From contig SXID01000139.1 in NCBI GenBank assembly GCA_005772955.1, positions 1-36,581 of the forward strand: DNA of 36,581 nucleotides. Direction: 5' to 3'. Both the position numbers and the translations under genes were made by a program. Positions 6,426-9,416 of the stretch are shown in pieces. Source of the DNA: Planctomycetia bacterium (GTDB lineage: Bacteria > Planctomycetota > Planctomycetia > Gemmatales > Gemmataceae). The first letter of the stretch is position 1; every line of letters starts with the position of its first letter. Under the pieces are notes generated by a model. It worked only from the letters and a program-made list of their open reading frames with translations, ran no database searches and was not told the origin of the DNA.

Positions 6426-9416
6426 TCAGAACCCACGCCCCTGTAGGAGCGCCCTCTCGAGCCTCCCCTTCCAGCGGTCCCGTGAGTCCTCCAGTCTCTT
6501 GAACAGGCCTTCCGGGGAAATGATCCCCTTGAACCCGTTCTCCTTGACCGTGTCGAGGATGGTCTGGTGGGTAGTCTCCACCCGGTTCTCGACGGCCGGT
6601 CCGCAAGCTTCTGTCCATCCAATGATGATGGACTTGGCCTGTTTCCCCGGTTCGTCCGTCCTGTGGGCTTCCTGAAGTGCTTCCCTCAGGTTCTTCCAGG
6701 CGTCGTCCGGGATCCCCAGGACGACGTTCCTGTTGTTGACCTTCATGGAGAACCCCAGTAGTTCCACGGGCCGAACGTTGAGGTCGGTCGGCTTCGTCTT
6801 CTCGCCCTTCTGCCCCTTGAGGTCGAGGCCGACCCCTTGAAGCAGTTGGCGGACGAGTTCGAGCGCCTCCACGCCGTCGGTCTCGTTCTTGACCATGTAC
6901 AGCAGGTTGTCCGCGTACCTGGCCCAGAACGGGATGAGTGCCCTCTCCCGGTCGACGGCGAGGTCGTGCCGGGGGTGCATGTGGGTGTTCAAGAACAGGG
7001 GCGACAGCGGGCACCCCTGCGTGATGCCGACTCCTTTCTGCGGGTGGTGTCGGGCGTCGCGACCCCGGACGATCGCCTCGAGCAGGTTGAGTAGAGGGGC
7101 GGGGTCGTAGTTCGCAGGCTTCGAGCCGTTGATCAGTCGCGTGACGTCTTCCAGCAGCGGGTCGTGGCGGACGCTGGGGAACGCCTGCTTCACGTCGTCG
7201 ATCACAGCGAAGATGATGCCGGTCGCCTCGATGTAGATCTTCACGGCGGCGAGCGCGTCCCAGTGGGACCGGTTCGGGCGGAAGCCGTACGAATTGTTCA
7301 GGAGCTGCGCGTCGAGGTGCGGGGCCAGCGCCCTGTTCAGGGCACCGGCCAGCACCCGGTCAGCGACCGTCCCGACCTCGATCGGGCGGAACTTGCCGTC
7401 GGGCTTGGGCACCTTCACCAACTTCGTCGGCTCGGGACTGTAGGCGCTGTCGAAAACTCGTCTGGAGAGATCGCGGAGGTGGGTGGCCCACTCACGCGGG
7501 GACAGGTCGTACAGGCCGATCCCGTCCTCACCGGCGCCCGGGCCGGCCCCGGCGTTCATCATCTCGTGCAGCACGGCGTACAAGTTGTCGGGGCCGACGA
7601 TGTCCGCGAAGGGCGGCAGGTAGTCGCCGCGCCCCTCGAGCACCTTGAGGGGGGAGTTCTTCTTGCCACTGCGGCGCCGCCGGGAGTAGCCCGAGAACGG
7701 GTTCGGGGGCAGGCGACGGGGCCGGGCGGGCGACAGCGTCAGTAGTGCCGTTGACGGCTGCAGCAGCGCCAAGACAATCGGTTCCGCAGTACCGATGGTG
7801 ACATTCGCGTCCCCCTCGGCGCTGGCGTCGGAGGTATTCCCGCTCTGCTTCACGTCCTTCAACAGGGCGTGGATCGCGTCACCGCGAGGGTGCCGGGCCA
7901 GGTAGCGGCGGAGCTGGTCGAACTCCACCGACTCGGCGATCGACTGCCAGCCGAGACGCCGGTAAGCGGCCCGCCGCTTGCGACCGTTCCGCTCCAGCTC
8001 CCGGTGGAACCTGTCGTCGATGTCGACGAACACCAGCTCCTTGGCCTTCGGGTCCGCCGAGCCGACGTCGATGCTGCCGGGCAGCGGGCCGGTCCCGCCG
8101 TCGGCCCGGATCACGACGTCGAACTCCCCGAGGGGGATCTTCTTCAACCCGTCGAAGGTGCAGACGACGTTGTCGCGGTTCGCCCCGGGCGGCTGGCCCC
8201 AGCCCGGTGTCGTTCGGCCCGACGAAGGTCCGGGCCGGAGCCCGCGTCCGGTCCCGGCCCAGCCGGGCAACATCGAGAGGAGCGTGTTCCCGTGGGTCGC
8301 GTTCTCGACCACCACGGCGACCCGGTACCCGCCTCCCGCCCGGTCGGTGAGCGAAGGGAGCTTGTTGCCCAGCCCTTTCGGCAACAGGTTCGCGATGGCC
8401 CTACGGTCGCCGGCGCACAAGGCGGTGGCGACGTCGGCGATCCTGCGGTTGCGTTCCAGGTTCGACCAGACGCCCAACTCCTTCACCTTCGCGGGGGACA
8501 GGCCCGGCTTGAGCCCGCTCCCCTTGTACGGCACCGACCCGTACACCACCGCCCGGTCGGTCACGCCGTGGCGGCCGACCCGCACCTCGGCGAGCCCGTA
8601 GATCTTCGTGAGCCGGTCGAGGTCGGCCGCCGGCACGCGGGCCTTGTCCGACAGCAAGCCGACCAGCCGCCCGGGCCTGGCGCACTCGATGGCCGTCAGA
8701 GCCCGCTTCTCCAGCCCCTCCAGCACGTCGAGCACGATGACGATGTCGCGGCGCTGGAGCAGCGCGTCGTCGTGGGCCAACCCGGCGAACGTGCCGACGG
8801 CCACTTGGTTACGAAGTGCCCCTTCGCGGTCGATCCGGGGCCGGGGGAACTCCCCCTGGCGGGGGCCGCTGAACGTCGTCACGTCCAACCCGGCCTCGCG
8901 GGCCATCGCCGCGAACGCGTCGACCTGTCCCTCCGTCTTGGCGACCACGGCGACGGTCTTGTCCTTGAAGGCCAGCGGAATCTGCACCGCCAGCCGCAGC
9001 CGATCGACGGACTGCGGGTTGTACCGGACGATGAGCCACGGCTCGCGGGCGATCGCGCGGATCATCCCGGCGTCGGGGCAGAGCTGCGGGTCGAGGGCGG
9101 CCGGCACCCACGGGGCCGGGGCCGGCATGCGGACCTTACCACCGGCGGCACGGACGAGTTCGGCCGCGAGGGGGGCCAGCGGAAGCGGACCGGTCGCGCA
9201 GGGCGTGCCGGCGAGATCCTCGCCCGGAGTGAACAGCGTCCCCGTCTCCCACTTCAGCCGCAGCGGCGACCTCGCATCCGCAGCGACCACCTCGCGGGCG
9301 GTCAACACGTTCAGCCCGGACAGCGGCGGGTAGACGGCCGCCCCCGTCTCGGCGGTCCGGATCGTGACCATCGCCGCCGTGGTGCTGTTGCCGGTGGTGT
9401 TCGTGTTGAGCGGCAT
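6426..9416 (-). CDS. Fusion protein: degenerate SF2-helicase-like half plus reverse transcriptase (YADN)
   Basis: 996 residues from the ATG at 9416. The C-terminal reverse transcriptase (about 655-935) shows RPIEVGTVADRVLAGAL (677-693), YGFRPNRS (710-717, as in group II-intron-type enzymes), motif A IDDVKQAFPSV (D741 the expected metal ligand), motif B GITQGCPLSPLFLN, motif C YADN (834-837) instead of YADD, motif E LLGFSM and a thumb-like IIIGW. No maturase-type extension or HNH domain follows.

Residues about 120-490 follow the layout of two RecA lobes of an SF2 helicase. There is KTVAVVAKTEGQ (motif Ia region), DIVIVLDVLEG where DExx should be, GLLSDKA where TAT should be, a YRVAVVVENATHGNTLLSML strand pair, and LVFVDIDDRF followed by an Arg-rich AYRRLGW end. 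Walker A is absent at its expected place, so this half is probably not an ATPase. Start is uncertain: the frame continues upstream through an Asn-rich tract, broken by one TAG at 9537. Confidence 0.8.
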   Translation of the reverse strand: MPLNTNTTGNSTTAAMVTIRTAETGAAVYPPLSGLNVLTAREVVAADARSPLRLKWETGTLFTPGEDLAGTPCATGPLPLAPLAAELVRAAGGKVRMPAPAPWVPAALDPQLCPDAGMIRAIAREPWLIVRYNPQSVDRLRLAVQIPLAFKDKTVAVVAKTEGQVDAFAAMAREAGLDVTTFSGPRQGEFPRPRIDREGALRNQVAVGTFAGLAHDDALLQRRDIVIVLDVLEGLEKRALTAIECARPGRLVGLLSDKARVPAADLDRLTKIYGLAEVRVGRHGVTDRAVVYGSVPYKGSGLKPGLSPAKVKELGVWSNLERNRRIADVATALCAGDRRAIANLLPKGLGNKLPSLTDRAGGGYRVAVVVENATHGNTLLSMLPGWAGTGRGLRPGPSSGRTTPGWGQPPGANRDNVVCTFDGLKKIPLGEFDVVIRADGGTGPLPGSIDVGSADPKAKELVFVDIDDRFHRELERNGRKRRAAYRRLGWQSIAESVEFDQLRRYLARHPRGDAIHALLKDVKQSGNTSDASAEGDANVTIGTAEPIVLALLQPSTALLTLSPARPRRLPPNPFSGYSRRRRSGKKNSPLKVLEGRGDYLPPFADIVGPDNLYAVLHEMMNAGAGPGAGEDGIGLYDLSPREWATHLRDLSRRVFDSAYSPEPTKLVKVPKPDGKFRPIEVGTVADRVLAGALNRALAPHLDAQLLNNSYGFRPNRSHWDALAAVKIYIEATGIIFAVIDDVKQAFPSVRHDPLLEDVTRLINGSKPANYDPAPLLNLLEAIVRGRDARHHPQKGVGITQGCPLSPLFLNTHMHPRHDLAVDRERALIPFWARYADNLLYMVKNETDGVEALELVRQLLQGVGLDLKGQKGEKTKPTDLNVRPVELLGFSMKVNNRNVVLGIPDDAWKNLREALQEAHRTDEPGKQAKSIIIGWTEACGPAVENRVETTHQTILDTVKENGFKGIISPEGLFKRLEDSRDRWKGRLERALLQGRGF

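Follow-up and report, generated by a model that had tools for sequence, protein, structure and literature searches.

What might a gene do that joins a reverse transcriptase (RT) to the remains of a helicase? Such a gene lies in the stretch of DNA analyzed here, a contig of 36,581 nucleotides from a planctomycete of the family Gemmataceae (SXID01000139.1; hereafter the window), where a first-pass annotation had described one 996-residue frame holding an RT and a degraded SF2-helicase-like domain. Our favored reading, to which we give a probability of about 0.45, is that the gene encodes, in fused form, a unit of two proteins found on small tyrosine-integrase elements, and that this unit is the replication or maintenance module of the element.

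Two halves of one gene

The 996-codon frame on the minus strand (6426–9416) is open, with no internal stops. An initial scan of the genome contigs with the whole protein as query gave no matches. When the bacterial family of the window was searched, a second fusion came to light in genome G087, which belongs to a different genus. The G087 frame has 1000 residues and is 68% identical in the N-terminal half and 70% in the RT half. The first-pass annotation had raised the possibility that the halves are separate genes in homologues and are joined here by a frameshift artefact. Separate genes are indeed common, but because the G087 fusion is independent, a frameshift or assembly error is ruled out and the fusion is genuine. 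Upstream of the G087 gene, a 24-nt unit is repeated in tandem 15 times (L049, 11592–11955); the counterpart of that stretch in the window (9417–9700) is AAC-rich on the minus strand and has no clear repeats.

Residues 1–574 gave no significant Pfam match. We modeled the two halves separately, a mixed full-length alignment having been misaligned, and each model stands alone. From a 27-row alignment, AlphaFold2 (AF2) predicted two RecA-like lobes in SF2 strand order (residues ~116–280 and 308–494) behind a beta-rich N-terminal domain, with a predicted local distance difference test score (pLDDT) of 80.8 and a predicted template-modeling score (pTM) of 0.80. This bears out the helicase strand order proposed earlier for residues 120–490, and the proposed motifs fit the model as well: VAVVAK forms the Ia strand, VLDVLEG the motif II strand and VGLLSDKA the motif III strand, and AYRRLGW lies in the C-terminal helix. 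Foldseek placed XPB and other SF2 proteins at the top (6p66, E 5.3e-10), and the viral matches were phage SSL2-like helicases. With VIA-align the best match was T4 UvsW (Z 17.5, 3.9 Å over 246 residues), which covered model residues 15–280, including the N-terminal domain at 15–115 as well as lobe 1. Archaeal XPB (Z 17.2) aligned across both lobes with a large root-mean-square deviation, as would follow from a different orientation of the lobes.

Walker A (GxGKT, or P-loop) was found in none of the 27 pseudohelicase family members. No member has DExx in the motif II column, which reads DVLE, DALE, DPVD, YAEG and the like, with the first Asp retained in many. The loss of both motifs reported for the window therefore extends to 27/27 members, and on this ground we reject an active helicase. 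On the model, the N-terminal half is an SF2-derived pseudohelicase of the UvsW/XPB type. It shares with T4 UvsW and archaeal XPB the N-terminal domain and two RecA lobes, but differs from them in lacking both motifs throughout and in being partnered by, or fused to, an RT. The pseudohelicase is presumably without ATPase activity and, judging by its fold, would bind nucleic acid; the scaffold or clamp role suggested earlier is probable from the structure model and family alignment.

The RT, described earlier as complete over residues 655–935, is so: RVT_1 matched residues 669–889 (E 1.7e-22), and a group II RT/maturase model matched residues 621–934 (E 2.4e-43, a score far under that model's own cut-off). 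The C-terminal half was predicted to have an RT fold (pLDDT 88.5, pTM 0.85), nearest to the group II intron RT GsI-IIC (Foldseek E 1.8e-19) and matching the G2L4 structure 9d4s as well (E 2.9e-14). An RT0-like region and thumb-like helices are present in the model, there is no Pfam maturase match, and the modeled core is of group II type. We found no Pfam match to an HNH endonuclease domain, and no group II intron RNA (domain V and the rest) or other Rfam family around the gene, at the gathering cut-off or at E≤1. The HNH domain is also missing from several classes of intron-encoded proteins, so its absence is not decisive. What the gene lacks, as far as detected, is an endonuclease and an intron RNA, and the earlier claim of no maturase-type extension was too strong, given the RT0-like region and thumb-like helices. 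GsI-IIC has that region, the fingers/palm and, as modeled, the thumb in common with the family, whereas the family is without detected intron RNA or endonuclease and has a DN motif in its main clade.

The catalytic Asp of motif A and the first Asp of motif C were invariant in 28 aligned rows. In 22/22 RTs of one clade, that of the window, the motif C sequence is (Y/F)xDN instead of (Y/F)xDD, while the other clade (n = 10) retains DD. The second Asp of YxDD points away from the active site in group II and HIV RTs (PMC12337344), and because it does so in these solved structures the DN change need not, by analogy, inactivate the enzyme; we infer that the DN form is active. Two DD-clade RTs carry a C-terminal RNase H domain (L101, 5495–7252; L102, 5654–7411), which matched Bacillus halodurans RNase H at E 1e-31 and Pfam at merely 8.6e-4; its acidic active-site residues seem to be kept when the alignment is inspected by eye. 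Another RT in the window's genome (L002, contig C100) is a distant relative and has the motif YCDD.

Two familiar kinds of bacterial retroelement were considered and rejected. A retron is contradicted by the St85 model score (16.1 bits vs a cut-off of 235) and by the lack of an Rfam match for an msr-msd noncoding RNA (ncRNA). A diversity-generating retroelement would have template and variable repeats, and window positions 1–16000 contain no long direct repeats.

A conserved two-gene unit

We searched the Planctomycetota for relatives, and all members come from this phylum. They belong to several bacterial families and occur in 15 of the 102 genomes searched from the order and in 9 of the 392 drawn from across the phylum. 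A pseudohelicase gene lies directly upstream of the RT gene on the same strand in 30 of 32 cases, the remaining two beginning at contig ends. In most cases the two proteins are encoded separately, and in L052 and L054 their genes overlap by 4 bp. Fused genes were seen in the window and G087, in G051, and in a branch containing G486, Gimesia sp. SAT87 and Planctomycetales bacterium 10988, the last with its frame broken within the pseudohelicase part. At least two changes between the fused and separate states are needed on the RT tree, and the fused state derives from a conserved operon of two genes and is present in no fewer than two to three branches. The first-pass annotation had known of no named family with this fusion; the survey thus found it in G087 and in further branches, beside conserved pseudohelicase–RT neighbors.

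On the RT tree, in which the outgroups were solely 16 other RTs of the same bacterial family, the family was set apart from these with support of 100/99. The pseudohelicase tree had the same DD/DN division (100/99), and this matching split in both trees means that RT and pseudohelicase have been inherited together. In viral contigs and plasmids, the queries tried found no close relatives, and RT hits were to ordinary group II or retron RTs at <60% identity.

The ratio of nonsynonymous to synonymous substitution rates (dN/dS) ranged from 0.17 to 0.60 and so stayed below 1 in every pair compared, a rough figure as synonymous rates are constrained in these GC-rich genes. In two of these pairs, the pseudohelicases shared less amino-acid identity than the RTs did (56 vs 85% and 70 vs 84%). 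We also observed unequal synonymous divergence between pseudohelicase and RT, at 1.13 vs 0.40 for L101/L102 and 1.21 vs 0.51 for L099/L100, which may hint at mosaic exchange. Degenerate copies exist (L060), and L105, L106 and L109 (G094) hold pseudohelicase genes or fragments with no adjoining RT detected. Upstream of the module in L056, fragments at 6525–6688 and 7342–7491 match the 3' end of the L057 RT and the start of its AAA_25 gene, which points to recombination or to an old tandem duplication. L101 9243–9270, a short way upstream of the pseudohelicase, matches L102 9424–9397 in inverted orientation, possibly an operator palindrome.

The RT belongs to a known kind, the group II-like RTs, and a family RT is present in Blastopirellula marina DSM 3645 (L121). 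G2L5 comprises three unplaced planctomycete RTs, one of them from Blastopirellula marina (PMC4244168). These are likewise group II-type RTs without intron RNA in planctomycete hosts, but are described, in the literature consulted on G2L5, without a pseudohelicase partner. The family may possibly correspond to G2L5, a candidate link made through the shared species. In the literature available to us, with most subscription papers outside reach, we found no description of an RT with a pseudohelicase or ParB, nor of the fixed DN or an exchange with replication modules.

Integrase elements and a putative replication slot

The fused gene sits in a series of minus-strand genes that runs from a tRNA-Phe gene and a tyrosine integrase through small helix-turn-helix (HTH) genes, a DUF3102 protein and a ParB-like gene to the fusion, HTH_A and gene B. 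Homologous loci repeat parts of this order: the RT unit is commonly beside a ParB-like gene, and the integrase adjoins a tRNA gene also in L050, L052, L054, L056 and L098, with tRNA-Phe, tRNA-Asp or tRNA-Val genes among those found beside it in other loci. The elements appear small, ~8–12 kb as estimated by eye.

We compared these loci with ten that have an HTH_A or ParB_D gene but no RT, nine of which were informative. Replication enzymes were present in seven of the nine: DNA polymerase A in L125, L140 and L144, and together with a DUF3987 protein in L123; DnaG-like primase with D5-type proteins in L124 and L141; and weak primase and DUF5906 matches in L146. No clear replication-gene call was made in L142 and L143. 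The tenth, L145, stops just past ParB, with a weak pseudohelicase match at the contig end. With phmmer we detected none of these replication enzymes in the RT-module loci and no RT in the sister loci; in the loci read, the RT unit excludes polymerase and primase modules. The exchange can be followed between L141, with the order D5-DnaG-ParB-AAA_25-B, and L057, with ParB-pseudohelicase-RT-AAA_25-B, which have ParB, AAA_25 and B in common while primase and D5 are swapped for pseudohelicase and RT. The two kinds of module thus hold the same place by the ParB-like and HTH_A genes, but their enzymes are unrelated. The window's own genome has a second element (L140, contig C195) with ParB, a D12 methylase and DNA polymerase A.

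Features of the window and the basis on which each was called. Residue numbers refer to the fused protein.
Feature	Position	Strand	Basis or remark
Fused pseudohelicase–RT gene, 996 aa	6426..9416	-	Open frame; fused homologue in G087
Beta-rich N-terminal domain, residues 15–115, preceding lobe 1	9072..9374	-	AF2 model; VIA-align match to 1rif_A
RecA-like lobe 1, residues 116–280	8577..9071	-	Walker A position reads RYNPQSVD, motif II LDVLEG
RecA-like lobe 2, residues 308–494, C-terminal helix ending AAYRRLGW	7935..8495	-	AF2 model, structure comparison, alignment
Linker, residues 495–600	7617..7934	-	Largely low confidence; AF2 model (residues up to 574)
Group II-type RT, fingers/palm and thumb helices, residues 601–985	6462..7616	-	Profiles, model, Foldseek
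RT active-site motif YADN, residues 834–837, replacing YADD	6906..6917	-	Sequence, alignments
ParB-like gene, upstream neighbor of the fusion	9809..10681	-	ParB_D profile (built from neighbors of homologous modules), 3e-9
DUF3102 protein	10764..11681	-	Pfam E 6.3e-9
HTH_17 protein, excisionase-like	11740..12081	-	Pfam E 5.4e-5, below cut-off; family E, in 8+ loci
Small HTH-containing protein	12411..12971	-	Weak Pfam HTH match
Tyrosine integrase	13160..14467	-	PF00589 E 1.6e-14; family kept in about 12 loci
tRNA-Phe adjoining the integrase	14586..14659	-	Probable integration target
HTH_A, HTH protein common to RT-less sister elements	4483..5274	-	Profile and neighborhood comparison
Gene B, linked to HTH_A in most loci having either	3551..4477	-	Neighborhood comparison
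Open reading frame	5310..6191	+	Conserved; homologue in L049 at the same place on the opposite strand (7622–8323, -), by eye

The DNA of the window's ParB-like gene is conserved in G087. To the left of the element, minus-strand genes at 1–2738 resemble, by eye, an RND/HlyD-type efflux system.

Readings of the unit's function

We favor a role in replication or maintenance because the unit replaces, and does not accompany, the polymerase or primase genes of sister elements. The more specific proposal, which we advance a little more tentatively, is that mobile elements replaced their polymerase/primase module by an RT and an ATP-independent, helicase-derived clamp, with a fixed YxDN in the main clade. 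The ParB-like protein would mark the element DNA. The pseudohelicase, a two-lobed nucleic-acid-binding shell from which no ATP hydrolysis is expected, would clamp a branched or R-loop-like primed structure and hand it to the RT, which would extend that primer on a DNA or RNA template; in one branch, the attached RNase H could remove the RNA strand.

Several points weigh against a replication role. Integrative elements need not replicate autonomously, and the slot could also hold defense cargo. No replication origin was found, and the sequenced stretches contain no convincing att direct repeats or copy of the tRNA end. Rfam gave nothing that would indicate a conserved ncRNA, and close pairs, where informative, conserve coding sequence only. 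The window's ParB-like protein is divergent and by itself has no Pfam match. The AAA_25 protein occurs in the RT loci L056 and L057 as well as in L141. The sister sample is small, ten loci from one bacterial family with some flanks short, and the exclusion comparison was made after the pattern had been noticed, with absence judged by phmmer only.

Defense against phages or plasmids is the strongest alternative, and we consider it unlikely. The pseudohelicase would sense foreign nucleic acid or recombination intermediates and activate the RT, and the DNA product of the RT would stop infection, in the manner of defense-associated RTs. RTs on satellites and islands are often defense genes (PMC9122126), and the DRT/UG defense RTs are likewise bacterial RTs on mobile islands. 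By profile scores, however, they are a different lineage, and the window RT falls far under the DRT cut-offs (Drt2, 29.7 bits vs 390; Drt3a, 19 vs 200). PADLOC found no clear defense match among the neighboring genes and one weak WYL match, and neither a conserved ncRNA nor a known effector was seen. The faster divergence of the pseudohelicase half in two pairs is sensor-like, but synonymous divergence is also unequal between the halves, and recombination may account for it. Defense cargo also fits poorly with a unit that excludes replication genes instead of accompanying them.

DNA end repair in the manner of G2L4, in which the pseudohelicase would hold element ends left by breakage or excision while the RT fills or joins them by microhomology, we regard as improbable. 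Among domesticated group II-like RTs of solved structure, G2L4 (9d4s) is the nearest; it too is freed from an intron, its fold is similar, its YxDD motif is altered as well (PMC12337344), and the UvsW/XPB resemblance of the pseudohelicase would suit such a role. The altered position is not the same, YIDD in G2L4 and YADN in the window, and G2L4 acts in host DNA repair with no helicase partner, whereas the way this unit travels on mobile elements and excludes replication genes points to a function for the element over one in host repair.

Very little speaks for a retroelement copied via RNA, a bacterial counterpart of the tyrosine-recombinase (DIRS-like) retrotransposons: an integrase and an RT do share one small element, and one branch has an RNase H domain, but the genes fall into several transcription units and at times lie on opposite strands, DNA polymerases serve the sister elements, and the fusion is not multicopy in the window's genome. 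Decay after a chance fusion, to which the lost helicase motifs, the degenerate L060 and the RT-less L105, L106 and L109 might point, is scarcely credible given the open frames, the conserved RT residues, the shared DD/DN split, the conservation over several bacterial families and a dN/dS below 1 in all pairs.

These data link an orphan set of planctomycete group II-like RTs to a constant partner and a genomic setting, and suggest a role that can be tested. The Asp-to-Asn change fixed across a whole clade raises a well-defined question of its own for RT enzymology. Were the replication reading true, a bacterial mobile element would rely on an RT for its DNA polymerase, and a helicase fold would have been retained as a passive nucleic-acid clamp.
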